Assembly (NCBI GenBank): GCA_021802485.1
Contig: JAJZXF010000014.1
Span: forward strand, 1 to 40,578
Source: Actinomycetes bacterium
GTDB taxonomy: Bacteria; Actinomycetota; Acidimicrobiia; Acidimicrobiales; JAJZXF01
Length of the DNA stretch: 40,578 nucleotides
Reading direction: 5' to 3'
The translations under genes were made by a program, and so were the position numbers. Below, in pieces: positions 1 through 15,931 of this stretch (positions are counted from its first letter, which is position 1; each line of letters begins with the position of its first letter). The notes beneath the pieces were generated by a model. That model worked only from the letters and a program-made list of their open reading frames with translations. It was not told the origin of the DNA and made no database searches.

Positions 1-326
1 CTCAGCTTGGTCGAACGCGCCCCAGAACACGAACACGGAAGTCACAAGGTGCCAGAGGCCGGAGAATCCCGATGTGCACTCTTGGTCAGCGGATCTCGGC
101 GGCTTACTCGCCGATCTAGGTCTGAGCTGCCGAGCAGCACGGTGGCGGGGGGTCGGTAGCCACCCCGAACGACGGTTCCCGGAAGCTCCGTTCGGCGCCC
201 GAACGTCGGGTTCAACATGAGCGGCGTCCTGGCTGATGGACCGCGCCGAGAAGTGCCGTTATGCGTTGCGGTCCCGACGGACCGGCGCGTCATTCTGTGC
301 GGCCGTCCTGTGCACGCACAGCCATC
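1..326. other. No recognisable gene
   Basis: This GC-rich stretch at the left edge holds only short overlapping reading frames without recognisable protein motifs on either strand. It ends at the promoter of the toxin-antitoxin pair. A gene reaching in from outside the window cannot be excluded. Confidence 0.5.
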
Positions 327-355
327 TGTACAAGTTAGAGTGTCCGTTGTACAAT
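327..355 (+). promoter_or_regulatory. Promoter/operator of the Phd-RelE toxin-antitoxin pair
   Basis: TGTACA at 327-332 (4 of 6 matches to a -35 box) and TACAAT at 350-355 (-10 box) are separated by 17 bp. Both lie in palindromic TGTACA sites at 327-332 and 348-353, exactly 21 bp apart, about two helical turns. The -10 box ends 6 nt before the ATG at 362 and no Shine-Dalgarno is present, so the mRNA is probably leaderless. Type II antitoxins commonly autorepress through such paired palindromes; that this site does so is inferred. Confidence 0.55.
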
Positions 356-361
356 CTGTTC

Positions 362-610
362 ATGACCAGGATGCCAGTCAGTGAGGCCCGGGAGAAGCTG
401 GCCGATGCGGTGGAAACCTCTCGCACCGAGCCGGTCTTCTTGGAGCGCTACGGCCAACCCGCGGCGGTGCTGGTCAGCCCCGAGCGTTACGAGGAACTAA
501 TGGAGGCCCTGGAGGACGCGGAGGACGTGGTGGCCTTTGATGCAGCGATGGCCGAGGAGGGCGCCAACATCCCCTGGGAGCAAGTCAAGGCCGACCTCGG
601 CTGGGCGTGA
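362..610 (+). CDS. Type II antitoxin, Phd/YefM family
   Basis: An 82-residue acidic protein. Its N-terminal half (MPVSEAREKLADAVE, then a strand containing PVFLERYGQPAAVLVS, then PERYEELMEALED) is the typical Phd/YefM DNA-binding fold, in which two strands and helices build the dimer that binds the operator. The acidic C-terminus (AEEGANIPWEQVKADLGW) is the usual toxin-wrapping tail. The start at 362 is chosen because the Phd fold begins there and a -10 box lies 6 nt upstream; an in-frame ATG at 236 would add an unrelated arginine-rich leader. It overlaps the toxin gene downstream by 4 nt (GTGA), so the two are co-translated. Expected role: neutralise the toxin and repress the pair. Confidence 0.85.
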   Translation: MTRMPVSEAREKLADAVETSRTEPVFLERYGQPAAVLVSPERYEELMEALEDAEDVVAFDAAMAEEGANIPWEQVKADLGWA

Positions 611-867
611 GCCTCTACCGAATCGAACTGCGCCCATCGGCCGCCCGGGCTCTACGCAAGCTCGATCCCGACGTCCGTCGCCGCATCCAGGGGGCCATCG
701 CACTCTTGGCACAGGACCCGAGGCCGCCGGCTTCACGTGCGATGCACGGCAGACCGGGGTACAGGGTCCGAGTCGGGAACTACCGCATCATCTACACGGT
801 CGCCGACGACGTTCTCCTGGTCGTAGTTGTTGCTCTCGGCCACCGGAGGGATGTGTACGACCGGTAG
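607..867 (+). CDS. Type II toxin, RelE/ParE family
   Basis: An 86-residue basic protein starting with GTG inside the antitoxin stop codon. It has the RelE/ParE pattern: an N-terminal strand (YRIELRPSAARALRKL), a helical hairpin around DPDVRRRIQGAIALL, then the strand pair containing GRPGYRVRVGNYRIIYTV and a C-terminal GHRRDVYDR. The late basic Arg/His/Tyr residues are those RelE toxins use to cleave mRNA on the ribosome. The length is normal for the family and no frame disruption is visible, so the pair may be functional. ParE-type gyrase poisoning is the alternative, but the RVGNYRIIYTV and HRRDVY signatures fit RelE better. Confidence 0.87.
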   Translation: MSLYRIELRPSAARALRKLDPDVRRRIQGAIALLAQDPRPPASRAMHGRPGYRVRVGNYRIIYTVADDVLLVVVVALGHRRDVYDR

Positions 868-997
868 GCTGTCGCTGAGGTGGTCGGTAGCTCGACGGTC
901 CGGTAGCACTAGAAGCGGATCGTGCGTGCTACCGGTGGCAGCCAATCGCCGGGCTCTGCGTGACTGGACCGGTGGCCCGGGTGGTGAGCCGCGCCCA

Positions 998-1023
998 GAC
1001 CGGACTTACTGAGATGGTAGGCA
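998..1023 (+). repeat. IS1634-family terminal inverted repeat, left
   Basis: It matches the reverse complement of 3124-3149 at 23 of 26 positions; the first 13 bases (GACCGGACTTACT) and last 6 (TAGGCA) are identical. It lies 91 bp beyond the transposase stop codon. Confidence 0.8.
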
Positions 1024-1113
1024 TGCAGAGGGGGTAGATAGTGGCATTGAACAGGGACAATGGCCGCGACGGACCTGAGGGGTCGTGTTACTACGCGAGC
1101 CTGTGACCTGCGA

Positions 1114-2994
1114 CTACCCAGCAGGGATTGGGAGCTCGTAGTCGAGGATCTGGGCCGGCTCGCGCACCTTGAGAGCAGCGAGGATCTTCCGTTGGCCATT
1201 CGTCGTTACCGAGCGCTTCGCGATGCGGCCCTCATTGGTCCCGAGGGTGACGAGGTGCATGCGCTCGAGCTCGTTTCTGACGTTTCGCCAGGTGTCGCCG
1301 GTTGCGTTCTTGACGACTCGGATGAGGAGCAGCCCGAGCCAGCAGAGCTGGATATGGGAGTGGATGCGGTCCTAGCGCGGTGGTGGAACACCGGTCGGAG
1401 CCGAGGGGCCCCTTTCATGTCTCTCCACCCGTGTTCAACCCGGTAGAGCTGTTTGTAGGCCTTGGCGAGATCGGTCGGGGTGAGGGTGTCGTCGCAAGTT
1501 CGGATGAGCCACTTGCCGTCGAAGTGGGCATCTTTGGCGATAGCGGCCTTGTCGACGCGAAGCCTGTGGTCCTTGGTCCGTTGGCAGAAGCGGGCGAGGC
1601 CAGGGATAGCACACAGCTCGCCGACAAGCTCGTCATTGCGCTCCTTGGACCACTTGTCGCTTGCCGCGATGCGCTTTGTAAGGTAGGCGACAAGGTTGGA
1701 TCGCACGATCTCGTCTCGGGCTTTGGCCTCAGGGTTGACGCAGACGACGAAGCGCTGTGTTCTCGCGCCATCGCCTACACGGACCTCCTTCACCGACAGG
1801 TTCCCCTCGACGAGGTGGTAGCGGCCGGGTGTTGCGAGCGCCTTCTTTGCGTCCGCGCTCGCGGAGCGGAGCTTCTCGCAGACGATGTAGTGCTCACCGC
1901 CTCGCTGCAGATAGGCCCGGTTCGTCTCGGAGTTGAAACCGGAGTCGCTTCCCCACAGGACCCGCTTGAGCATCCAGCCCCCGAGGTCGTCCTTCACGCG
2001 TCGGATGATGAGCTGGTCCGAGGTGGTCCCCGGAAACGTCCAGCAGCGGATCGGAAGCCCTTCGGCGGTGACGGCCATAGCGATCACGACCTGGGGCAGG
2101 TCTTCTCCGAACTACTCAGCTCCACCAAACCTGCAACAGCGATGCTGAGTGATGGTCAATAGCAAAAGCGCAGCAAGGAAAGCGCAACTCGACTTTGTAA
2201 CCGGTCGCTGTACGCGGTTCACTAGTTCGGTTAACAGGTCTTGGCGGTGATCCTTTGAGTGTTTGGAGAACTGGCGTGAGGCAAGCTCGTCGGGGACCGC
2301 TGGCTCCTTGGCATCTCCTGCATCTGCCTTCTCGGCCTGTGTAGCGCTAGCAAGCTCGATCTCTTCGTCAGCAACATCGACTTCTTAGTAGGTAGTGCAG
2401 GTGTCGACGAAGATCACGTCGCAAGACAAGTTGAGCAGGTTCGCTGTGCGAACAGAAGATGCCATTTGCGATATCCGCCAGCGCCCCGAGGAGAAAGTCC
2501 ATCGCCGCGTAGGCCGCCGGTGAGTCGAAAGCCTGACACGAGGGGATTGCGACGCGCTCTTGCACCCACGACACACGCGAGCTTCGACGCTGGCTCGAGA
2601 CAGCCCTGAGAAACCAGCGCGAACAGGACCCGCTCGATCACCTCACTCGCCCGAGAGACGCCGTCCGTCCGCCGCGTCCACGAGGGCTTTTTCGGGTCCC
2701 AAGACGGCGCCAGAGCTCGTCGAGCACGTACGCGCCGCCGAAGCGCCGGGAGTCGACGCTCTCGACATCGGAACCCTCGGTAGTAGCCATAGCCTCGCCG
2801 TGCTCGAGGAAGCGGCTGATCGACGACACCAGACGCGCGAGCGATTCGCGATCAGCCTTGTCTGCCCTGCCGAAGTTGTGGATCACCTTCGCGACCGGCG
2901 AGCCGCTCACCGGGTGGCGCTCGTTGTGGGCAAGCTCGAGGTTGCTGACGAGCGAGCCATCCTTGTTAGTGCGGCGCGTCTTTCGCAAGTACAC
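1114..2994 (-). pseudogene. IS1634-family transposase (DDE, IS4-like), multiply disrupted
   Basis: Read from a GTG at 2994 down to TAG at 1114. The N-terminus (YLRKTRRTNKDGS, then FGRADKADRESLARL and LDELWRRLG) shifts frame near 2640; segments with LEPASKLAC, then RVAIPSC, then NLLNLSCDVIFVDTCTTY lie in successive frames down to about 2385. There TAA replaces a codon usually for Phe after the first catalytic Asp (VDT). The frame then continues through ADEEIELASA and KDHRQDL into an inserted MITE at 2097-2242, resumes with PQVVIAMAVTAEGLP, includes the second Asp (WGSDSGFNSE) and the Glu (YRVEHGWRDMKG), and shifts again at about 1375, where two extra bases follow RPVFHHR. The last 85 residues (DRIHSHIQLCWLGLLL onward) are intact in the new frame. 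At least four frameshifts make it nonfunctional. Confidence 0.85.
2097..2242. mobile_element. MITE-like 130-bp insertion with 8-bp target duplication
   Basis: CAGGTCTT occurs at 2097-2104 and again at 2235-2242, and the 130 bp between them (2105-2234) have no counterpart in the transposase. Removing the insert and one copy of the duplication restores an uninterrupted KDHRQDL-PQVVIAMAV junction. Near the ends lie inverted repeats CCGAACTA (2107-2114) and TAGTTCGG (2223-2230); inside, ACTCAGC (2114-2120) pairs with GCTGAGT (2144-2150). There is no coding capacity. The size, target duplication and inverted repeats fit a MITE mobilised in trans. Confidence 0.75.
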
Positions 2995-3123
2995 GCCTAC
3001 AAGTAAAGACCATATTGCCCAGCACAGGTCAACTACTCGTGTGCCTACGCCATTCGGAGTATTTGGCCATGCCTCAGCACTCCAAACAGGGCAGATGTGC
3101 TGGTGGTGGAGATCGCCTTCAGG

Positions 3124-3149
3124 TGCCTACAAGCTGAGTAAGTCCGGTC
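3124..3149 (-). repeat. IS1634-family terminal inverted repeat, right
   Basis: Partner of 998-1023. It lies about 130 bp upstream of the transposase GTG, leaving room for a promoter. Confidence 0.8.
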
Positions 3150-3525
3150 CGTGAGCAAGGCTACTTCGGCCGCTCCGAACGCGCGCGCAGAGGTTCGGCC
3201 CCAGCATCCGAACACGACGGCACGCATAACGACGCCCCAGACGGCCGCATCGCCCTATCCCGAGGAGCGCGAAACCGGGGATCTGTACCTAGGGACCGCG
3301 CCTCATCCGTGACCCGAGCGTGACCCACGGGGCGCCCGTCCCGGTGCGACCGGCGGTCCGTCGTGAGCCATGGCACCGCGCGCCGCTGGGTAGCCAACCG
3401 ACTGACCAGGACAAACGCCGGCATACACCGAGCCTTGGCGGGACGAGAACTCGGTTCGAAGCAGCATGAGTGCTGCGCTCACAGAACGGAGCCGGGCCGC
3501 AGAAGTGGCCTTCTGGCAGGGCTTT
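3150..3525. other. Spacer between the IS and the att site, no gene seen
   Basis: A GC-rich stretch with only short overlapping frames and no recognisable protein, RNA or repeat. It is the chromosomal (or older island) sequence outside the tRNA-Ile element. Confidence 0.5.
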
Positions 3526-3573
3526 TGTGGGGCTAGCTGGAATCGAACCAGCGACCTCAGCATTATCAGTGCT
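3526..3573 (-). repeat. Distal attachment site with displaced 3' half of tRNA-Ile
   Basis: On the minus strand this is a tRNA-Ile 3' half: anticodon loop and stem, variable loop, a T-arm (GCTGG TTCGATT CCAGC) and acceptor strand TAGCCCC, followed by ACA rather than ACCA. The 23 bases at 3551-3573 are identical to 9095-9117 in the intact tRNA-Ile gene. The T-stem differs by paired, compensatory changes from the intact gene (GCAAG/CTTGC), so this is a real tRNA end of slightly different origin and not a random match. It is best read as the original 3' end, pushed away when the element integrated. Confidence 0.8.
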
Positions 3574-3686
3574 CCTGGCCCCCCCTGTCGGAGCAGCCAC
3601 GCCAACCGAATATAGCCGCTCACCTGCGGCGTTGCTGAGCGCCGCCACGCCAGAGATGGCGTCAGTTGGCGTCATTCTGGGGGCTC

Positions 3687-3706
3687 ATGGGGGCGCAGTG
3701 GGGGCG
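3687..3706 (+). repeat. 20-bp direct repeat, putative integrase arm site (left)
   Basis: Identical to 8991-9010 in the same orientation, 113 bp inside the left att core. It contains GGGGGCGCAGTGGGGGCG, itself two related GTGGGGGCG/ATGGGGGCG units. In the excised circle the two copies would flank the att core, the arrangement expected of arm-type sites bound by the N-terminal domain of a tyrosine integrase; that role is inferred. Confidence 0.6.
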
Positions 3707-3809
3707 CAGGCCCTGCGCCTTCGTTCAGCGGCGCCCCGTGTTCTGCACCCCCCGCCGCCCAGCCACATACGCCTCGCCAACTATGCGTCAGGAGTGCTAC
3801 TCTGTCTCT

Positions 3810-4189
3810 ATGCCCGTGGTCGTCGAACACCCGCACTTCCGGCCCTGGCTGGCCTCGCTACCCGGAGCGTCGCTGCCAAGGTGGTCGACGGGATCGAGTA
3901 CCTGCGAGAGCACGGCCGAGGGGCGGTGCTGCCTGACGTTCGCCACCGCAGACAGACCAGTCGCCATTTCCCCGACATGAGCGAGGTCCGGGCTGACCAG
4001 CTCGTCGGCGGTCGCCGCTTCGTGATGAGGGTGCTGGTGTGCTTCGTTGACGAGGATCAGACGCTGCTCGTCTGCATCGGCGGCAACAAAGACCGCTACC
4101 CGGAACGGGTGGACCGGGACTGGTACGACGACTACGTGCCGGCGGCTGATCGGGTGGTCGACAGCTACAAGAAAGGAGCGTTGCGATGA
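3810..4189 (+). pseudogene. RelE/HigB-type toxin with a frameshift near its N-terminus
   Basis: The ATG at 3810 opens MPVVVEHPHFRPWLASLP, and the remainder (AAKVVDGIEYLREHG, then TSRHFPDMSEVRAD, RRFVMRVLVCFVDEDQTLL, IGGNKDRYPERV, DWYDDYVPAADRVVDSY) lies in another frame. The switch falls near 3863, where one missing base in CTACCCGGAGCGTC would restore a continuous LPxSVAAKVVDG. The second part is a typical actinobacterial HigB/RelE-like toxin ending in the WYDDYVPAADRVVD signature. TACTCT at 3798-3803 is a -10-like box 6 nt before the ATG. It overlaps the antitoxin gene by 4 nt (ATGA). It is either a real inactivating deletion or a sequencing error. Confidence 0.7.
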
Positions 4190-4569
4190 ACGAACCAACC
4201 CGGGACGAAGCGGAGCTGGCCGCCTGGAGCGCGGAGGTAGCACCTGACGAGTGGGTGCGCGACCACGGGTGGTCGCACCCGGACCCGGAGTTCGGGGAGG
4301 CGCTGGCTGCAGCTCGCCGCCAGACCGAGGCCGCCCATGCCATCGTGACGAGCCTGGCAGAGCTTCGCCGGGCCGTGGGCCTGAACCAGACCGAGCTGGG
4401 CGCACGGTGGGGGCACACCCAGTCGTTCGTCTCACGGGTCGAGCGGGATGTTGCGGGTGTGGAGATGGCGACGCTGGTGGGCTACGTCAAAGCACTCGGT
4501 GGCCGCCTGACCGTCACCGTCGAGGCAGGCGATCGGGTCTTCTACGAAGACCTCGTCGTCGGCTTTTGA
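4186..4569 (+). CDS. HigA-like antitoxin with Xre helix-turn-helix
   Basis: A 127-residue protein with an N-terminal acidic helical part (residues 1-40) and a helix-turn-helix at about 60-105: LAELRRAVGLNQTELGARWG, then QSFVSRVERD and EMATLVGYVKALGG, the Xre/Cro pattern. The C-terminal strand GRLTVTVEAGDRVFYE is usual in HigA-type antitoxins. Toxin-first order with a 4-nt ATGA overlap is the HigBA arrangement. It should bind the toxin and repress the pair; with the toxin broken, it may persist as an orphan repressor. Confidence 0.85.
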   Translation: MNEPTRDEAELAAWSAEVAPDEWVRDHGWSHPDPEFGEALAAARRQTEAAHAIVTSLAELRRAVGLNQTELGARWGHTQSFVSRVERDVAGVEMATLVGYVKALGGRLTVTVEAGDRVFYEDLVVGF

Positions 4570-4760
4570 GCCCGCCAAGGACGACCGGTCGTCGTGATCA
4601 AGCTGCATGCCGCAGCGCTGGCCCCATTCCGAAGCGGCCAGCTCTGCGTTCCACCCCGGGCATGAGCGATCCGCGAGACGGGCGACTACGAACAGGACCT
4701 CGAAGCAGCAGAGACCATCTTTCCCGACACATCTCCGACACCAATACGACGACGGCACCG
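4570..4760. other. Spacer after higA
   Basis: No gene is recognised here. An in-frame ATG at 4662 could extend the next gene upstream by 33 codons, but that extension is Arg/Ser-rich and looks non-coding. Confidence 0.4.
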
Positions 4761-5426
4761 GTGATCTCCGAACAGTCCTTCTACGTTCCCAAGGCAAGCG
4801 GCTTGCAGCAGGGTGACATCCTGCTGACTGGCATCGCTCGCATCACCGGCGACAATGGCTACAGCCCGGCTCAGTGGGAGCCCTTGGACACCCACGACAT
4901 CCAGGTCGATGGCGTCAAGCCAGACGGCAGCGCCGCCCGGTTCTTTGCTGGCTTTGGCCTGGCGATGGTCACGTCCCACGATTGCCAGCTGGAGAAGGAA
5001 TGGAACCGGCGCCGGTCAGAGCTGGTCGCCCAAGGCAAGCCAGAGGAGGAGGCCGCAGCGGAAGCTGTCGCTGATCCGACGCTGGACCGGACGCTCGTCG
5101 CGAGCCCGCTCGTTGACCCCGACGACGTTCCCGTCGATCGCGGGAACCTGCTCGCGGGGCACGTGGTGGGATACGTGCCAGTCCCCGCCTCATCCGATGG
5201 GCTTGTCCCGGAGTGCGTGGTCGATCTCAGTTACCGGTGCACCCTGGATCGCTTCAACGTGGTGCGCGTTGCGTCGATAACAGGCCTCGCACGTAGCCAG
5301 CTCCGCTACGCCCTGGTGCGTCTCGACGCTCTCCGCACTCCCAACCTGGGCTTCACGGTGGAAGATGTCATCGGTCATGCGATCCAGCACGTCGAAGTAC
5401 CGAAGAGTTGTATCGCCGACCCCTAG
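4761..5426 (+). CDS. Unknown protein, C-terminus replaced by IS3 sequence
   Basis: About 221 residues from GTG 4761 (an ATG at 4662 is the alternative; neither has a clear ribosome-binding site). Visible features: FYVPKASGLQQGDILLTGIARI, a central FGLAMVTSHDCQLEKEWNRRR followed by a charged helix rich in Glu and Ala, DRTLVASPLVDPDDVP, and a late NVVRVASITGLARSQLRYALVRLDALR. The SHDCQLEKE segment resembles one I recall from unnamed actinobacterial island proteins, but I cannot assign a function. The last 9-10 codons come from an IS3 fragment on the opposite strand, which supplies the stop, so the protein is truncated by an unknown amount. No membrane segment is visible. Confidence 0.55.
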   Translation: MISEQSFYVPKASGLQQGDILLTGIARITGDNGYSPAQWEPLDTHDIQVDGVKPDGSAARFFAGFGLAMVTSHDCQLEKEWNRRRSELVAQGKPEEEAAAEAVADPTLDRTLVASPLVDPDDVPVDRGNLLAGHVVGYVPVPASSDGLVPECVVDLSYRCTLDRFNVVRVASITGLARSQLRYALVRLDALRTPNLGFTVEDVIGHAIQHVEVPKSCIADP

Positions 5427-5577
5427 CTCTCGTGCAACCTCAGCTGAAGGCCTGCCAGACGATCTCAACAGCGCTACTGCATCTGCCTTGAACTCGGGCG
5501 AAAAACGCCTTGGTGAACTCTGCTTTCCCATTGGAACATCCTCCTTCATCTATACCTGTCATGGAGTGTCCGGTCCA
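5399..5577 (-). mobile_element. IS3-family fragment (one end only)
   Basis: The terminal repeat reading TGGACCGGACACTCC lies at 5577-5563 on the minus strand, followed by the start of OrfA. The other end is missing: the sequence stops abruptly at about 5399 against the truncated cargo gene. It is a 180-bp relic, probably of a deletion between IS copies or of an aborted transposition. Confidence 0.7.
5405..5531 (-). pseudogene. IS3-family OrfA, N-terminal fragment
   Basis: It encodes MGKQSSPRRFSPEFKADAVA and then GRPSAEVARELGVGDTTLR, the N-terminal helix-turn-helix of IS3-family OrfA proteins, with GGAGG 7 nt upstream of the ATG. After DTTLR the frame runs into unrelated sequence (the back strand of the cargo gene), where an intact OrfA would continue with a tryptophan-containing helix. 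Only about 42 of roughly 100 residues remain. Confidence 0.75.
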
Positions 5578-5809
5578 AGGGGGGAAGTTCAGACGGTGAC
5601 CTGAGACGCCCAGAACGCCGACTCGGCGCTCGTCGCGCTCGTTCGGTCGAGCGTTGTTCTGTACTTGCCAGCGTTCTCGTCGACGGAAGTTGGTGCGCGC
5701 GAGTTCGCCTCGCGGTGCGACCTCAGCGGATCGTTTGATCAGGCGTGGCGCCGCCCGACGACTCGCGGAACCCGGGTTGGTCCGCCCGAAAGCTGCCAGA
5801 ATATGCGCC
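5578..5809. other. Spacer upstream of the unknown helical protein
   Basis: No gene is recognised. A frame continuous with the downstream gene reaches back to 5654 but is arginine-rich and unlike the protein that follows, so I treat it as non-coding leader. Confidence 0.4.
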
Positions 5810-6718
5810 ATGACATCTCTCGACGCTCAGCAATCCTTTGCAGCCCGCGTTGGCGAAATCTTGCAGGAAGTCATCAAGTTCGCGCGCGAATTGAGCGACG
5901 CGACCGAGGCTGATCCGGTGGTGGGGTCTCAGGCGGATGACGAGCTGAACTTCAACCAGGAAGGAGGCCCGAAGGGTCCGTGGGGCCGATCGCCTGTCGA
6001 ACTCGCGTACACTACCGCCGCCTTGCTGTATGCCGCGGCCGGTCAGTATCTACGGTCACTTAGGCAACTACTTAACGATGACACCGCTCTTTTCGGATTC
6101 CAGGTCATTACGCGGGCGCTCCTAGAGGCAGCGGCCCGCTCCTGGTGGATTCTTGACCCGGCATGCTCGGTTCGTGAACGAGTCGAGCGAGCCTACGATG
6201 AGCAGTACTACAGCTTCGATGAGCTGCGGAAGCTCGCGGCCGCCATGAGGGGCGACTTCGCCAACCAGGTCAGCAGTGATGTGCGTCTTCGTGCTGACGC
6301 TGCCGAACTGGGCCTTCATGAACGAACCGAGAAGAACGCGCCTTTTGCGCGGCCAACTGGCGTAGGGTCGCCCCGGCTCAATGCCACCCAGGTGGTTGCG
6401 GCGCTCAGTTCCCACGTAGAGATAGCCGATGGCGAAAGGTGGTATCGCACCTTCTCCGGCATCGCCCACTCAGCGCTCTACGCGCAGATCGGATATTGGG
6501 AGCCGGTCCGCGGTCCAGGGGTTGCGCGGGAGCACTTAGAGCCGGCGCTGCCGATGACCGCGATCGCGCATGCCGCGGTTCTGTCCATTGCTGCCTACCT
6601 CGGCGCCATCGAACGACACGCGTTGCTCTATGGCCGGGATTGGAAGCAGCTGCAGAGCATGCGCCAAAGCGCAACGACCCGGATCATTGCCCTCCACGAC
6701 ATCCATGTCGTCCGTTAG
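5810..6718 (+). CDS. Unknown all-helical protein (island cargo)
   Basis: A 302-residue protein predicted largely alpha-helical: FAARVGEILQEVIKFARELS near the start, a long helix VELAYTTAALLYAAAGQYLR, then FGFQVITRALLEAAARSWWI, an acidic YDEQYYSFDELRKLAAAMRG, and a C-terminal part with WYRTFSGIAHSALYAQIGYW and AVLSIAAYLGAIERHALLYG. There is no signal peptide or clear membrane span. The RALLEAAARSWWILDP and SxxAHS features recall uncharacterised helical proteins found in mobile islands, but I cannot name a family with certainty. The ATG at 5810 is chosen because the arginine-rich extension to 5654 looks non-coding. It is followed 86 bp later by the C39-like gene on the same strand; the two may be co-expressed. 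Confidence 0.7.
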   Translation: MTSLDAQQSFAARVGEILQEVIKFARELSDATEADPVVGSQADDELNFNQEGGPKGPWGRSPVELAYTTAALLYAAAGQYLRSLRQLLNDDTALFGFQVITRALLEAAARSWWILDPACSVRERVERAYDEQYYSFDELRKLAAAMRGDFANQVSSDVRLRADAAELGLHERTEKNAPFARPTGVGSPRLNATQVVAALSSHVEIADGERWYRTFSGIAHSALYAQIGYWEPVRGPGVAREHLEPALPMTAIAHAAVLSIAAYLGAIERHALLYGRDWKQLQSMRQSATTRIIALHDIHVVR

Positions 6719-6804
6719 TCGGCGCATTTCCGGCGTTCGGGGCCATGTCTTGGCGGTAGCTCGGATCTATCGCGCCGGACCACGTTCTGCTAGGCAGGGG
6801 CTCA

Positions 6805-7254
6805 ATGATTCTTAGACGGGTACCCCAACGCCAACTCGATGACTGCGCCATTTGCTCCATTGCGTCGGTCTTGGGGTATTCGTACGAGCGCGTTCAGGCA
6901 GATCGACGCCAGCGATATGGCCACGTTGACGACCGCACGGCTTGGTGGGAGTGGTACCTAGAGGACGAGGGTCACAGCTCCGAATACCTGCCGACTACAC
7001 AGCTTGATGTCATCTCACGCAAAGGTGGCACCGTCGTCGGACTATTCGTGATGCACCATCACGCCCTCAGGGCGTCACACATTATCGCCATTGATGAATT
7101 GGGCTTTGTGGACCCATCCGATGGCTTTCCCGACCACGTTCTCTTTGACGTCTATCCCACAATCAAGACGGCGCAAGGATTTATATTCGACCAAGACTTC
7201 CTTGCTGTCGCCTTGTCTACAGCTGAGGACCTAAACCGGGAAGACCATCCCTGA
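6805..7254 (+). CDS. Small papain-like (C39-type) cysteine protease-fold protein
   Basis: A 149-residue protein opening with VPQRQLDDCAICSIASVLGY. Gln8 followed six residues later by Cys14 and a helix is the active-site layout of C39/papain-like folds; His92 (RASHIIAID) and Asp103 (FVDPSDG) are well placed to complete a Cys-His-Asp triad. There is no signal peptide or transporter domain, so it is not a bacteriocin exporter. It could be a stand-alone protease, a transglutaminase-like enzyme or an inactive fold. AGGGG lies 4 nt before the ATG. Its place beside an unknown helical protein in an island suggests accessory or defence-like roles, but no function is shown. Confidence 0.65.
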   Translation: MILRRVPQRQLDDCAICSIASVLGYSYERVQADRRQRYGHVDDRTAWWEWYLEDEGHSSEYLPTTQLDVISRKGGTVVGLFVMHHHALRASHIIAIDELGFVDPSDGFPDHVLFDVYPTIKTAQGFIFDQDFLAVALSTAEDLNREDHP

Positions 7255-7508
7255 ATAGCCGATAGGTATCTCCCAGCCGCGGGTATACGGGTTATCGGCC
7301 GAGCAGCGAGGTGATTCCCCTTGACGACACGTGCAAACAGAAGATGACGCCCGAACGACGGCGCTCCTGGACTCAACAGTCGCCCAACCGACGGCTCGGG
7401 TGCTCGCCGGGTAGGTGTGGCAAGTGCCAGGTGGCAGGCAAACGTTGCCGCTCCGGGCACTGGTGGTCCGCTGCGGGAGCCCAGCCCGCATACCGGCGAC
7501 CCGACCAG

Positions 7509-8668
7509 CTACGCCCCCGCCGCCCGGCGGGTCGGCCGCAGCTTCTCCACCTGTCCGCCACCCAGCAGGGCGGCGATGGCGTTCTGCGTGTCGGTGTGGT
7601 CGTCGCGCCAGAGGTGACCGTAAACACGCTCCATGAACGCCGCGTCGGTGTGCCCGGCCCACCTCGCGACCGTGAGGCGGTCAACTCCGGCAGCGATCCA
7701 AAGTGCTACTGCGGTGTGACGGAGGGAATGAGGGGTCGCTTGTGGATCGGCAATCCTGGCCCGTTCGACGGCTGGCCGCCATATCCGGGACCGCCAGTTG
7801 TCAGGGGTCATCGCTCCCCCGTCCCGACCGGTGAACAGCCAATCATTCGGTCCCAAGCCGCGCTCGTCGATCATGGCCGCCAGGCGGTCCCGCAGGGCGG
7901 GGTGGAGGGTCGGCACCGTCCGCTGCCCGGCGAAGGTCTTGGTCGGGTGGATTTGGCGTCGAACGTCGCTGCCGGACACCGCCAGTGGGACACTCACCGC
8001 GGTCGAGCGTACGACGACCTCGCCAGCGGCGAGCCGTAGGTCCATCACCTGCAGGGCCGCAAGCTCACCGATCCGAAGCCCGGTCGTCGTGCCGAAAGGC
8101 ACCACGATTGCCCATCGAGGGTCGATTGCCTCCTCCAACCGCACCAGCTCACCAACGGTGAGGAATCTCCGCTCTACCCGGCCGGGCCGGGTGGCTTGAC
8201 TCCGACGGCAGGGCTGGCAGCGATCAAGCCCTCGCTCACCGCGTCGGTGAGTAACTTCTTCAACGTCACCAGGCACCGGGTCACCGTCGCGGGTGCAAGC
8301 TCGCTCGACATGCTCACCGTCCACGCCGCCACGTCACTACGACGAAGGTCAGCGAGACGCACCGCCCCAAACCGGGGCTCGATCTGGCAGGTCCAAATGG
8401 ACTGCTCCCTCGCCCTGGTGCTGGACGACACCTGGCGCGTGGCCGACCACCGATCCCACCATTCGGCCACGGTGATCTTGCCGCCACTTGGGTCGCCGGT
8501 ACCGCCATAGCGGCGCTCTCGGAGGCGTTCTTGGCGGTAAGCCTCGGCTTCGGAAGCGGTATCGAAATTGGCCGTGTGTCGCTTGCCGGACGAGTCGTAC
8601 CACCGCGCTTCCCACGTCGCTGTCCCGCTCCGCCACTCGCGCCGGCGCACACCAGGCTGGCGGCTCAT
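7509..8668 (-). pseudogene. int: Tyrosine integrase, split by one frameshift
   Basis: The first part starts at 8668 (overlapping xis by 4 nt, ATGA) and carries an arm-binding domain (WEARWYDSSGKRHTANFDT) and a SAM-like core-binding domain (WWDRWSATRQVSSSTRAREQ, VTRCLVTLKKLLTDAV), ending at TAG near 8174. The catalytic domain continues in another frame from about 8190: ERRFLTVGELVRL, TGLRIGELAAL (Arg), PTKTFAGQRTVP (Lys), PHSLRHTAVAL (His-x-x-Arg), ARWAGHTD (His) and MERVYGHLW (nucleophile Tyr). All catalytic residues are present, so only the single indel within CCCGGCCCGGCCGGG disrupts a protein of about 385 residues. It lies beside the att site it should act on. Mutation, sequencing error and programmed frameshifting are all possible. 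Confidence 0.8.
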
Positions 8669-8916
8669 GCGGCCCGGTCCCGATTGCGCGGACGACCCCG
8701 CCGCACGGACGGGTCCACAGGGGTGGCATCGACCACCTGTGATTCAAGCCAGGCGGCCACGTCCTCGGGGCGGAAGCGAAGTTCCTTACCCACCCGGAGG
8801 AAACGGATGCGGTGCTCGTGGGTGAGACGGTAGACGAGGTGCTTCGACGTACCGAGGTATGCGACAAGCCGGTCGATGTCCCACAGCTCCGGCAACTCAT
8901 GCGAATCGTCCCTCAT
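8665..8916 (-). CDS. xis: Excisionase / MerR-type helix-turn-helix protein
   Basis: An 83-residue basic protein containing LWDIDRLVAYLGTSKHLVYR and then RIRFLRVGKELRFRPEDVAA, the winged helix-turn-helix typical of actinobacterial excisionases (HTH_17/AlpA-like). The start at 8916 (MRDDSHELPELWDI) is preferred over 8988 because the fold begins there. Directly upstream of int with a 4-nt overlap, it should control the direction of recombination by bending the att DNA. The basic tail RRGRPRNRDR may aid DNA binding. Confidence 0.8.
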   Translation of the reverse strand: MRDDSHELPELWDIDRLVAYLGTSKHLVYRLTHEHRIRFLRVGKELRFRPEDVAAWLESQVVDATPVDPSVRRGRPRNRDRAA

Positions 8917-8990
8917 GCTCAATGGAGACAGATCGACCAATCCTGCCAGCGACGGCCAAGCGCCTCGTCGGGACGGATTCGCCCCCACTG

Positions 8991-9010
8991 ATGGGGGCGC
9001 AGTGGGGGCG
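8991..9010 (+). repeat. 20-bp direct repeat, putative integrase arm site (right)
   Basis: Identical to 3687-3706 and 84 bp inside the right att core, between xis and tRNA-Ile. A CGCCCCCACTG just before it also makes a small inverted repeat with the GTGGGGGCG unit. Confidence 0.6.
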
Positions 9011-9068
9011 AAAGACGTGTCGCCTTTGCCATCATCTCGGTCTACATAGGGTCTGACCAGGGACTCTG

Positions 9069-9145
9069 TGGTGGGGCTAGCAAGAATCGAACTTGCGACC
9101 TCAGCATTATCAGTGCTGCGCTCTAACCGGCTGAGCTATAGCCCC
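9069..9145 (-). tRNA. tRNA-Ile (anticodon GAT)
   Basis: A complete 77-nt cloverleaf on the minus strand: acceptor GGGGCTA/TAGCCCC (7 bp), TA, D-arm GCTCAGCCGGTTAGAGC, anticodon stem CAGCA/TGCTG with loop CTGATAA (anticodon GAT), T-arm GCAAG-TTCGATT-CTTGC, discriminator A and an encoded CCA. tRNA-Ile downstream of gyrA on the same strand is a classic actinobacterial arrangement. Its 3' half was supplied by the integrated element, since the older 3' half lies at 3526-3573. Confidence 0.95.
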
Positions 9146-9187
9146 CATACGCACACTCCAAGGTTATAGCCCACCGAAGGTTCATCA

Positions 9188-9237
9188 CCCAACTTTGCAC
9201 GCTGCAGACGGACCCTGCGTCTGGCTGCAAAGCTGGG
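9188..9237 (-). other. Long stem-loop between gyrA and tRNA-Ile
   Basis: Read on the minus strand, CCCAGCTTTGCA pairs with TGCAAAGTTGGG over 12 positions (one G-U pair), and an inner CAGACG pairs with CGTCTG. The only non-Watson-Crick pair is allowed in minus-strand RNA but would be a mismatch on the plus strand, suggesting an RNA element in the gyrA-tRNA transcript. No T-run follows, so it is not a standard intrinsic terminator; a processing or stabilising hairpin is as likely. Confidence 0.5.
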
Positions 9238-9302
9238 ATGTGGCCTTACACGGAAACTCATAACCATTGACACGAAGACATTATCCACCATGGTGGGCCT
9301 TA

Positions 9303-11774
9303 TTATTCCGCCCCAGTTGGGACGGTAGTAACAGCGACCAAGTGCTGACCCGGGTCAAGGCTCATAAGCCGGACCCCGGTTGCATCACGCCCCTGGGCTG
9401 CGATCTGGCGAACCGCTGTGCGAATCGCAACACCTCCCGACGACACTGCAAGCACCTCGTCATCAAGAGATACGAGGAAGGCCGCCGCAACAACTCCCCT
9501 TCGCTGATTCAGTCGGATTCCCCGCACCCCAATGCCACCACGACCTTGCCTTCCAAAGTGTCGCGTCGCTGTTCGCTTCGAAAAACCCTGATCCGTAATC
9601 ACCAACGCATCTCTTTCCTCGGCAAGGACATCACATGACACAACAACATCATCGCCACGAAGCTTCATACCACGAACCCCCATCGCACCTCTTCCCATTG
9701 GCCTCACGTCAGCCTCGGAAAACCGAATAATCATTCCATCCCGACTAAAGAGAATGACATCCCCGTTCCCTCCGGTACGAATGACGCGAACAAGTTCATC
9801 GCCAGCGCTCAAACTAATCGCAATGAATCCATCCCGGCGCGACTTATCATACTCCGTCATCGCAGTCTTCTTTACTTGACCCGAGCGAGTACAAAAGAAT
9901 AAATAGTCACTTTCATTGAATTCCCGAGTATCCACCATTGCATTAATATGCTCATCAGACGCAAGTGGAATCAGATTAACAACTGCAGTACCTCGTGCAG
10001 TGCGCTCCTTGAGAGGAATCTCGTGACCCCGGAGCCGATACACACGGCCACGATTGGAAAACAGGAGCACGTGAGAATGCGCACTCGTATGCACGAGGGA
10101 ATGGACCAAGTCTTCCTCACGCAACTTCGCTCCACTCACCCCCCTACCACCGCGGCCCTGTGTGCGAAATGCACTAGCCAGAACTGCTTTAATATATCCC
10201 GCCCTGGTGAGCGTGATGACCAACTCTTCATCCGCAACCAAGTCCTCAGTTGAGAGCTCACCCACATCATTGACAATCCGAGTGCGGCGCTCGTCGTGGT
10301 GACTATCCCGTACGGCCTGGAGCTCCTTGGCGATCACCGACCTCAACCGCGTCTCGTCAGACAAGATCAACTCGAGCTCAGCTATGGTTGACCGAAGCTG
10401 ATTGAGCTCCTCATTAACCTCCGCCTCACCGATCCGAGTTAGCCGACCAAGCGTAGTATCAAGTATGAAGTTCGCCTGTACTTCAGTGAAAGAAAACGGG
10501 GCGGCCATAAGGGCCTCGCGCGCTGTCCCTCGGTCTTGCGCCTCACGAATGGTCGCGATCACAAGATCAAGAAGTTCTACAGCCCTTAGCAACCCCTCCA
10601 ATACATGAGCACGATCCCGCGCCTTTCCAAGGCGATAACGCGAACGCCTGGTAACCACATCGACCTGATGGGCCAAGTAATGCCGAAGCATGTCACGTAG
10701 GCTCAGTGTCCGCGGCACACCATCTACAAGAGCAAGCATATTGACACCAATGCTGACCTGCATCGGGGTATGCTTGAACAGCTTATTTAACACCAATTGT
10801 GGGTTGGCATCACGCTTTAGGTCAATCACCAACCGCGCCTTGCGTCCTGCAGACGCATTCTGAAGCCGCGAAATTCCATCCAGGACTCCTGCGCGCACCA
10901 GGTCAGCAATCTTACTCTCAACGACCTCAACGGCAGTTTGATACGGAAACTCAGTAACAACTATATGCGCCGAGCCAGTACGGGTTGTCTCAATCTCAGC
11001 GACCGCTCGCATCTTGATAGACCCACGACCTGTCTCGTATATGTCCCTAATCCCAGATCGACCAAGGATAAACGCCCCAGTCGGAAAATCAGGACCCTTT
11101 ACGAATGCATGAAGCTCTTCATTCGTTGCGTCAGGATTCGCCAATAAGTAGGTCGTCGCATCAACGACCTCACCCAGGTTGTGTGGTGGAATATTTGTCG
11201 CCATGCCAACGGCGATCCCCTGGGAGCCATTAACCAGCAAATTTGGGAACCTCGCCGGAAGGACAGTCGGCTCCTCCTCCGTACCGTCATAGTTTGCGAC
11301 ATAGTCAACGGTGTCTTCGTCAAGCCCGTCCAGCAATACCAACGCGAGGGGAGCTAGCCGGCACTCTGTGTAGCGCATCGCAGCCGGGCCCTCATCCGGT
11401 CCAGTGGAACCAAAGTTACCGTGTCCATCGATAAGGGGTAGACGTAGGCTGAAGTCCTGCACCATTCTTGCCAGTGCGTCATAGATTGCACTTTCACCGT
11501 GGGGGTGGTATCGACCCATGACGTCACCAACAACGCGGGCGCACTTCATATAGGCACGATCCGGCCTGAGCCCTTGCCCAAACATCCCGAACAGAATTCT
11601 ACGGTGTACTGGCTTCAGCCCATCGCGAACATCTGGCAGTGCTCTTGCGACAATGACAGACATTGCATACTCGAGGAACGACCGCTCCATCTCCTCCTGA
11701 ATCTCGATTGGCTCAGACAACAAGCCATCATCAGTAAGAATTACACCCTGCTCCGAGGAGTGCCGCTCAGCCAT
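9303..11774 (-). CDS. gyrA: DNA gyrase subunit A
   Basis: An 823-residue GyrA, of normal length. It has the breakage-reunion domain with [11 protein letters not shown], the quinolone-resistance region [16 protein letters not shown] (Ser and Asp at the positions of E. coli Ser83 and Asp87, i.e. the sensitive state), the catalytic Tyr in [10 protein letters not shown], and the [20 protein letters not shown] motif. The C-terminal beta-pinwheel carries the GyrA box as QGRGGRG, needed to wrap DNA and introduce negative supercoils. GGGGAG lies 3 nt before the ATG. It follows gyrB after 95 bp on the same strand and is probably co-transcribed with it. The enzyme relieves positive supercoils ahead of forks leaving the nearby origin. 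Confidence 0.98.
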
Positions 11775-11869
11775 GGACTCCCCGCCCGAGAATCGTGGTG
11801 CGCGGCGTAGCTACATTGGGGATTTGCTGCAACCTGACCAAGCATGACGTTAGCATTAGGCGGACTCTC

Positions 11870-13837
<1,968 letters not shown>

Positions 13838-13974
13838 CTAGCATAAGCTGGTACTGGCTGCCCTGCCGTACGTTCTGTGGCTCCTTCTTTGGTTATATTC
13901 AGGCGCTCGCTATGTTAAGCCTTGAGTTGGGCTCTGCGCTGGGTTGTTCCTAAGTCTCGGAACAGGTCGTGACG

Positions 13975-14298
13975 TTACGAGTTCACTGTGATCTCTAATC
14001 GCCTCACCTTGCTCGCCCGACTATGGCCTTCATCCAAAGCGGAATTTATTACAGATATGAGTAACCCCTCATTTAGCCTCAGGGTTGCCGCAAGCGCATT
14101 GCTTGGTGTGGTCACTGATAGCGTGCCGCGATAAGAGTACGTGATCCGAAGTCCGTCGACTGCGTTCTCCGGCAAGACGCGCTTGCATGCCTGCCGCGCT
14201 CGTTGTTCGACGAAGTTTGGACTAACGCGCGAGTTGTGGATGACTACGTCAAGTGAGTCTGAGATGTGCCGTGGCGGCCCATGGGGAGAGTTCTGCAT
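13975..14298 (-). CDS. DUF721/DciA-like protein
   Basis: A 107-residue protein between dnaN and gyrB, where actinobacteria carry a DUF721 gene. The C-terminal half, with RGTLSVTTPSNALAATLRLN, ISVINSALDEG and a final VRRLEITV, fits the short alpha-beta DUF721 fold (surface KH-like) seen in DciA, the helicase loader/operator of many bacteria that lack DnaC. It is shorter and more diverged than typical members, so the assignment depends partly on position. TAGGAT at 14310-14305 ends 6 nt before the ATG with no Shine-Dalgarno, suggesting a leaderless message. It may help load DnaB at the nearby origin. Confidence 0.65.
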   Translation of the reverse strand: MQNSPHGPPRHISDSLDVVIHNSRVSPNFVEQRARQACKRVLPENAVDGLRITYSYRGTLSVTTPSNALAATLRLNEGLLISVINSALDEGHSRASKVRRLEITVNS

Positions 14299-14800
14299 GT
14301 ACTTATCCTAAACCGATTGACATCCCGCTTTGAGGGCTCGAATCACACCAGATGGCCTTGATCATAACTGAAGGCCGCCGAACGCGTCCCGCTCCTACGG
14401 CCGATCACCTTGCCTGCTCAGATCGTGTATTGGTGGTAACCTTTGTGGAGGCTCTCGAATCAGCAAGAACGCTGTTCCCATTTTGGATCTGTTCACTGAT
14501 CACACACTGACTGTAGGTGCCTCGGTGATCCAACTCCGTTGACCCTCGGGCAGAGGTCTTATCTGGAAATCTCCAGGGTGTCCCGTAAACCCCGGTCCCC
14601 AGCCCATAGACAACCTCATCTATAGGCCAGTTTCCCGCCCAACACCGTACGTAATACCTGCCATTCGCAATCATATATATAATGTGTTTCGGGACACTTT
14701 CCGCCCCAAGCGGGGTGAATCCTCCCACACGAGAACCGGCGATATAACGAAAGCCGACTTTGAACTAGAGATGCGACGGGTGAGAAATGCCGAGAATTCT
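14299..14800. other. Spacer where recF is expected; only a doubtful ORF
   Basis: In most actinobacteria recF (about 1.1 kb) sits here, between dnaN and the DUF721 gene. The 500 bp contain only one minus-strand frame of about 107 codons (14728-14405; contains YYVRCWAGNWPIDEVVYGLG), which has no Walker motif, no ABC signature and no resemblance to RecF that I can see. Whether it is a small orphan gene, a decayed remnant or noise is unclear. The TAGGAT promoter of the DUF721 gene lies at its gyrB end. Confidence 0.4.
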
Positions 14801-15931
14801 TTAGATGATCCGAATAGGCATCAATAAATATTGGTAACTGTTTTCTTTTGTAGCCTGAAGAAGACTTGGTTTTCCAGCATCCGCGGTCTTTATCACAATG
14901 GTATCTTCATTGATAGCGTCAATGCCATCGCTCAAGTACGACCCATTGAATGCAATTTCAAATGGTTCCCCGCTGTATGTGACCGAAACCTCTTCAACCG
15001 CCGAGCCAATATCGTCACTAGTTACTCGTACATTTATTAGATCGTCACTCACCTCCAGTCGTATCGGAGTCTTATTATCCTGGACAAGTAGCTTCATCCT
15101 TCGTAATGCCTGCTGCATCGGCTCTGCCTCAAATGAAAGTTCGTGGGCATAGCTACTTGGAATCAACTTCCCGTAATCAGGAAATCGTCCTTCAACAAGG
15201 CGCGCGAGAATTGCAGTATTCATGTAAGAAAAATACGCTGTAGAACCAAGCGCGCTTAGTCGCAGCATCTCATCGGGGACATGACTAGATGGTGGGCTCG
15301 CGAGGATTCGTTTGACCTCTGCAAGGGCACGGGCTGGAATAACTATCGGCTCAGCCAGGACATTATCTGGATCGTCATACTTAACCGTACCAATTGCAAG
15401 CCTGTACGAGTCTGTGCCTACAACAGTCATACCACCGACAGTTGGTGACATTAGAATTCCCGTAAGAACTGGGCGGCTATCGTCAGTTGATGCGGCTCGA
15501 ACTACTTGGTTGATCGTCGTCGACAACTCTGATACCGGAATCTCCACGAAGCGGTCATTCTGAAGGCCAACGTCAGTCTTCGGAAACAGATCTGCCTCCA
15601 TGCAACGGATACTGAATGAGCTGTTCCCCGAGACAACCTCGAGTTCTGTTCCGGCAACCTGGCGAAGGACAACTGCACCAGGCTCAAGGGATCGAACAAT
15701 TTCAACAGCAAGGCGACCAGGAACCAATACCTCACCTGGATCGGTAGCAACAACGTCTGTGCTCGCGATGATTGTCAAATCGCGGTCGGTGCATGTTGCC
15801 ACAAGCTGTGTCTCTGTAACGAGAATGTGCATTCCACCAAGAACTGCACTCGTTAGTAGACGCGTACCAAGAGCGCGGGACGCTGTTGTCAAGGTCGATA
15901 GCAGAGTGTCTCGCTCGATTGTAAGTTCCAT
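14801..15931 (-). CDS. dnaN: DNA polymerase III sliding clamp (beta subunit)
   Basis: A 376-residue beta clamp of normal length with three clamp folds: MELTIERDTLLSTLTTASRAL opening domain I, VSELSTTINQVVRAASTDDSRPVLTG in domain II (RPVLTG is highly conserved), VEGRFPDYGKLIP at the domain II-III junction, and the C-terminal YQYLLMPIRI that lines the partner-binding pocket. It encircles DNA and tethers polymerase, ligase and repair enzymes. AGGGAG lies 8 nt before the ATG. It is downstream of dnaA across the putative oriC, and its promoter may lie within that spacer. Confidence 0.98.
   Translation of the reverse strand: MELTIERDTLLSTLTTASRALGTRLLTSAVLGGMHILVTETQLVATCTDRDLTIIASTDVVATDPGEVLVPGRLAVEIVRSLEPGAVVLRQVAGTELEVVSGNSSFSIRCMEADLFPKTDVGLQNDRFVEIPVSELSTTINQVVRAASTDDSRPVLTGILMSPTVGGMTVVGTDSYRLAIGTVKYDDPDNVLAEPIVIPARALAEVKRILASPPSSHVPDEMLRLSALGSTAYFSYMNTAILARLVEGRFPDYGKLIPSSYAHELSFEAEPMQQALRRMKLLVQDNKTPIRLEVSDDLINVRVTSDDIGSAVEEVSVTYSGEPFEIAFNGSYLSDGIDAINEDTIVIKTADAGKPSLLQATKENSYQYLLMPIRII

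Follow-up and report, generated by a model that had tools for sequence, protein, structure and literature searches.

The window analyzed here is the whole stretch of DNA under study, 40,578 nucleotides in length, and corresponds to a complete contig of a source genome of 2.86 Mb in 152 contigs. Within this window, an intact tRNA-Ile gene and a repeat of its 3' half enclose an integrase gene, an HTH_17 gene, gene B, gene A, an insertion-sequence remnant, gene C, and an antitoxin-like gene (Table 1). The gyrA-tRNA-Ile pair recurs in four of five stretches from relatives, the fifth containing tRNA-Met and tRNA-Asn. The G+C content is 57–68% over positions 1–9000, compared with 49–57% over positions 9001–15600. 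An integrase, a tRNA target, and a tRNA-end repeat, which together define an island, are all present, with the integrase broken in frame. The tRNA-Ile/repeat pair, the integrase and HTH_17 genes between them, and the G+C contrast confirm that the integrative setting is real. Genes A and B, which an earlier note on this DNA had placed in an integrative island, thus reside in such an island at the gyrA-linked tRNA-Ile.

Table 1. Features of the island and its surroundings, with positions in the window.
Feature	Position	Strand	Remark
PhdYefM/ParE pair	236-867		Outside tRNA repeat
Repeat of tRNA-Ile 3' half, 43/47 identical	3527..3573	-	Distal element border (inferred attachment site)
HTH antitoxin-like protein (HTH_3)	4186..4569	+	
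Gene C, without Pfam match	4734..5426	+	Start uncertain
Insertion-sequence remnant, 104 bp	5493..5596		
Gene A, 302 aa, all-helical, probably DUF5677-related	5810..6718	+	ATG start 5810
Gene B, 149 aa, orphan	6805..7254	+	ATG start 6805
Tyrosine integrase, split over two overlapping reading frames	7509..8668	-	
HTH_17 protein, small, adjoining integrase	8665..8988	-	Probable excisionase, role inferred
tRNA-Ile(gat), intact, host gene adjoining gyrA	9069..9145	-	Integration site

Since the integrase reads in two frames, it is either broken or mis-assembled. A HigB/RelE-like toxin frame before position 4189, upstream of the antitoxin-like gene, also looks broken by eye, and both cases reflect either decay or assembly errors. 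The earlier note had described the other genes of the island as toxin–antitoxin genes, which holds in part: the antitoxin-like gene lies inside the island, while the PhdYefM/ParE pair is real but situated beyond the tRNA repeat. This pair, together with transposase fragments, occupies high-GC foreign DNA that continues beyond the tRNA repeat as far as the start of the contig (1–3526), as if two elements were arranged in tandem. We also observed a second direct repeat of 39 bp (85% identical; 3684–3721 and 8988–9026) near both element ends, possibly representing integrase arm sites.

Two stretches of the island have counterparts elsewhere in the same genome. The insertion-sequence remnant directly upstream of gene A shares 99% identity with a stretch of contig C58, overlapping an ORF with an HTH_Tnp_1 transposase match. 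The DNA at 4602–5407, corresponding to gene C, recurs at 80% identity on contig C19 (locus L034). There, the relative of gene C is flanked on one side by an HTH regulator-like ORF and on the other by type III restriction mod/res-like genes, all on one strand and named by eye. The likeness suggests that defense-linked cargo is present in this island too, and the position of the near copy of gene C beside a type III restriction-like locus speaks for a defense or mobile context.

Gene A and its relation to DUF5677

Genes A and B are both intact open reading frames on the plus strand, at the positions previously described, with the composition by codon position expected of genes. For gene A, the G+C content at the three codon positions is 0.685, 0.477, and 0.695, the pattern of a real gene. 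Neither gene contains an in-frame stop, whereas 4–12 stops interrupt each of the five remaining frames. The reading frame of gene A remains open upstream to a TTG at position 5654.

Gene A matched no family in Pfam or NCBIfam at an E-value of 1 or better, and its sole PADLOC match was weak (PDC-M15B, E 0.014). Using phmmer, we found that it is linked to the proteins L012 (6.7e-16) and L009 (5.8e-14). Single-sequence searches with A identified five other genomes among 59 relatives, one of which was judged false (PhoH-like), and one other genome of 296 across the phylum. Among 347 genomes of the order, a five-member profile of the A family matched 22 at 1e-4 or better, a count that includes its own genome and in which five genomes had themselves supplied the profile. 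Before counting, we dropped L013 (a weak, PhoH-like match to A, judged by eye), L058 (the same protein as L014), and a second short match in genome G599. Two relatives, L009 and L010, lie on MAG contigs titled Acidimicrobiaceae and Actinomycetes, and a genome-contig scan with the A-family profile returned only two loci, on these same contigs. Searches with gene A gave no match in phages or plasmids and no confirmed match in viral contigs; its relative L012 matches two Streptomyces plasmids, in both cases a "hypothetical protein".

The alignment of 20 family members has a mean column identity of 23%. L010, whose C-terminal frame looks broken, was for that reason excluded from the alignment but retained in the neighbor count, and L064 entered the alignment as a partial reading frame. 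Three residues of A (R102, S216, and H220) are invariant in the 20 members, and four others (E106, W113, R124, and R127) show conservation of 90% or more. The predicted structure of A is a helical bundle (pLDDT 68.9), and fold comparison of this model returned only generic helical bundles. PDB sequence searches with A, B, and the families yielded nothing meaningful. An active or binding site is suggested by the conserved Arg and Glu paired within one helix, another pair of Arg residues, and an invariant Ser-x3-His that closes a later helix.

We identified a link between this family and DUF5677, a domain without an assigned function that is present in several bacteria, including the control genome of E. 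coli. Matches to DUF5677 were obtained for six of the 20 A-family members (best E 1.1e-4). In a profile–profile comparison, the 20-member A family aligned with eight DUF5677 proteins taken from other genomes over 200 columns (probability 93.8, E 1.7e-7), and the negative control, in which the A-family profile was set against an unrelated profile, gave a probability of 0.0. Gene A taken singly fell short of significance against the DUF5677 profile (P 0.078). The pattern R-x3-E...[SN]-x3-H occurs in 20/20 A-family members, 5/8 DUF5677 proteins, and 5/58 other proteins, and R89 and E93 are invariant in the alignment of the eight DUF5677 proteins. On these profile comparisons, gene A very probably encodes a divergent, stand-alone member of a DUF5677-related helical family.

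A search of plasmids with a DUF5677 protein gave no match, and a literature search on DUF5677 found no related paper. At locus L088, the DUF5677 stretch shares one long open frame with a second stretch. This second stretch is presumably DUF6602-like.

Gene B and the C39 comparison

No relatives of gene B were detected in 396 genomes of the phylum, nor in 347 genomes of the order at 0.001 or better. At E-values up to 1, matches appeared in 75 of the 347 order genomes, including its own; the best of the others (0.0027) spans 35 residues and contains an internal stop, and we regard these matches as noise. A scan of genome contigs gave 19 pattern matches, none of which was confirmed, and viral contigs contained no relatives. 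With tblastn, plasmids gave no match at E up to 0.01 and four partial matches at E up to 10, while phages gave seven weak partial matches at E up to 5. Against PHROG, B matched phrog_3754 weakly (E 0.011), a family found in 0/246 genomes and absent from the control genomes. Gene B is best read as a separate orphan passenger.

The earlier note had assigned B a C39-like, papain-type layout, and Gln8, Cys14, His92, and Asp103 are indeed located where it placed them, in the Gln-Cys-His-Asp/Asn order. The strict Gln-Cys-His-Asp pattern was written after B had been seen and is therefore weak evidence. For comparison, we assembled 19 Peptidase C39_2 domains; none was found in 59 near relatives, and a wider draw gave them in 31 of 115 genomes. 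Because Gln, Cys, and His are invariant in these 19 domains, the resemblance of B is understandable. The profile test, which covered C39_2 among the C39 families, gave no significant match (hhalign, P 0.31): scores as high were reached by 71 of 150 shuffles of B and by 26 of 71 unrelated proteins. Searches of B against Pfam, NCBIfam, and PDB sequences returned no protease match, and the PADLOC defense models gave no match for B. The single-sequence model of B has low confidence (pLDDT 55.6), and its fold matches are noise, with no papain-type chain among the matches listed.

The label of C39-like protease is consequently unsupported for B, given a profile score no better than that of shuffles, the lack of a database protease match, and a model too poor to be informative. 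If B is an enzyme, the order of its residues would hint at a small cysteine hydrolase of the papain/C39 type, a guess that we consider doubtful.

Neighborhoods of gene A relatives and rival explanations

To describe the context of the A family, we collected the 101 proteins encoded within three genes of A relatives at 20 other loci. None of the 20 loci carries a B-like gene, and none of their genes matched the C39_2 profile. No neighbor family is common to more than three of the 20 loci. Pooled PADLOC and Pfam scans of the neighbors identified pAgo, GajA/GajB, QatA, AbiEii, and type II MTase and REase, along with mobile-type proteins (Resolvase, relaxase, and transposases). Ten of the 101 proteins, chosen after the pooled list was available, were scanned singly with PADLOC. 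A strong PADLOC neighbor (E 1.6e-50 or better, within three genes) was present at seven of the 20 loci (L009, L010, L059, L063, L064, L068, and L072; L071 was weak). These neighbors comprise type II MTase, XhoI-like type II RM, pAgo, GajA/GajB, AbiEii, QatA, and SoFic.

As a control, we used 20 loci from the same order, processed with the same gene caller and encoding 98 proteins (34,018 residues, compared with 25,739 for the A loci); these loci mark chance matches to B and do not amount to a strictly random sample. The control gave DISARM-like matches as well as matches to type I or IIG restriction, which we placed in two loci (L131 and L135) by eye, from the sequences and the pooled HMM lists. 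Defense neighbors taken separately, at 7/20 A loci versus 2/20 control loci, do not differ significantly (Fisher, one-sided p 0.064). When mobile-element neighbors are added, the counts become 12/20 versus 3/20 (one-sided p 0.004), a comparison that is post hoc and partly based on labels given by eye. The mobile labels of L012, L014, L065, L066, and L069, and of control locus L125, were likewise assigned by eye from sequences and pooled HMM lists. If the XerC-like control locus L140 is treated as mobile, the counts are 12 versus 4 (one-sided p 0.011). The proposal that A and B are cargo in a defense-prone setting is thus borne out insofar as the A family often lies near defense or mobile genes, but its defense component taken separately is not significant. 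We treat this context as a lead and not as proof.

These neighborhoods bear on whether A and B form a functional two-gene system, either toxin–antitoxin-like or defensive, in which B, as a C39-like protease, would process or activate A. The two genes lie on the same strand, 86 bp apart, and the gap between them has no terminator-like site on the plus strand, so they may be co-transcribed. Both are intact, while the integrase and the toxin-like frame nearby look broken, and the Q-C-H-D order of B and its S-H-I-I...V-D-P stretch look C39_2-like by eye. However, B was found in no other genome searched, its score against C39_2 does not exceed that of shuffles, and no B-like gene accompanies the 20 other A relatives. 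Neither of the two outcomes that the earlier note had named in advance as checks, co-occurrence of A and B in other genomes and a predicted protease fold for B, was seen in the data searched, the model of B being too poor to judge its fold. The two-gene unit that the note envisaged is very unlikely. That B, lying between A and the integrase, is not a protein of defined function but a spurious ORF or one of recent origin would agree with its lack of relatives in every collection searched and with its low-confidence single-sequence model. This explanation is quite unlikely, as the G+C content of B by codon position (0.644/0.389/0.617) is typical of a gene and a purine-rich stretch directly precedes its ATG.

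Alternatively, A could be a helical protein of ordinary physiology, such as a regulator or a small-molecule enzyme, that has been scattered by horizontal transfer, with its nearness to defense genes reflecting the gathering of accessory genes in islands. DUF5677 has no assigned function, the defense enrichment is not significant, and 13 of the 20 other A loci have no strong defense neighbor, a count for which 10 of the 101 neighbors were scanned singly. Nevertheless, several properties of the A family are unusual for physiology genes, including its patchy distribution (22/347 genomes), the solitary position of its members without widely shared neighbors, and the frequency of a mobile or defense context (12 versus 3 of 20). 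We regard an ordinary physiological role as a serious possibility, though one short of an even chance.

Proposed role and comparison with known systems

We tentatively favor the reading that A and B are two independent passengers in the tRNA-Ile island and that A is a stand-alone genome-conflict accessory, not part of a two-component system. As such, A would be an accessory protein carried by integrative elements and would act alone, as an effector of the abortive-infection type, with infection or stress as its trigger. Its helical bundle would carry an active site formed by Arg, Glu, Ser, and His at the conserved positions. This site could act on RNA or another nucleic-acid target, as HEPN effectors do; such an RNA-acting step, drawn by analogy, is unlikely. 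Some anti-phage or anti-element role for A, whatever its form, is conceivable, although we would not call it probable. We further considered whether the DUF5677-related family might comprise unrecognized single-gene anti-phage (abortive-infection) effectors, with an Arg/Glu and Ser/His active site, that travel in integrative elements and defense islands beside Gabija, Argonaute, Qat, AbiE, and restriction systems. This broader proposal is rather unlikely. Should the DUF5677-related family turn out to act as a stand-alone defense effector, the domain would acquire a function, along with an active site open to testing; otherwise, the locus is an ordinary island with unassigned passengers, and it illustrates how weakly a protease call is founded on the order of residues alone.

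Compared with known systems, B shares with Peptidase C39_2 (PF13529) the order of Gln, Cys, His, and Asp and a V-D-P stretch after the His, and G-H-x-x-V...V-x-D-P of C39_2 and S-H-I-I...V-D-P of B are alike by eye. Unlike members of that family, B has no HMM match, and its hhalign score equals that of shuffled copies. The A family resembles DUF5677 (Pfam PF18928) in having R-x3-E followed by S-x3-H. In contrast to DUF5677 proteins, A reaches no Pfam model, just 6/20 of its family touch DUF5677, and the family has two additional conserved features, the Trp W113 and an R-x2-R stretch.

Among named defense proteins, PADLOC assigned none to the 20 A-family members, with weak matches for two of them (A itself and one to JAB, E 0.055). 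The HEPN motif is described in PMC3710099 as R-x4-6-H, with the His at the end of helix 3, and the same paper describes one HEPN family that retains the His without the motif Arg. The A family differs from the HEPN superfamily in having no conserved R-x4-6-H (H220 is invariant, whereas R213 varies) and no sequence match. The HEPN toxin 7ae6 aligned with the A model (pLDDT 68.9) over 131 residues (Z 6.5, rmsd 4.1), a result tied with those of unrelated helical proteins. Like HEPN proteins, A is predicted to be all-helical, with an invariant His at a helix end and conserved basic and acidic residues, and the HEPN fold may offer the closest functional analogy for A.
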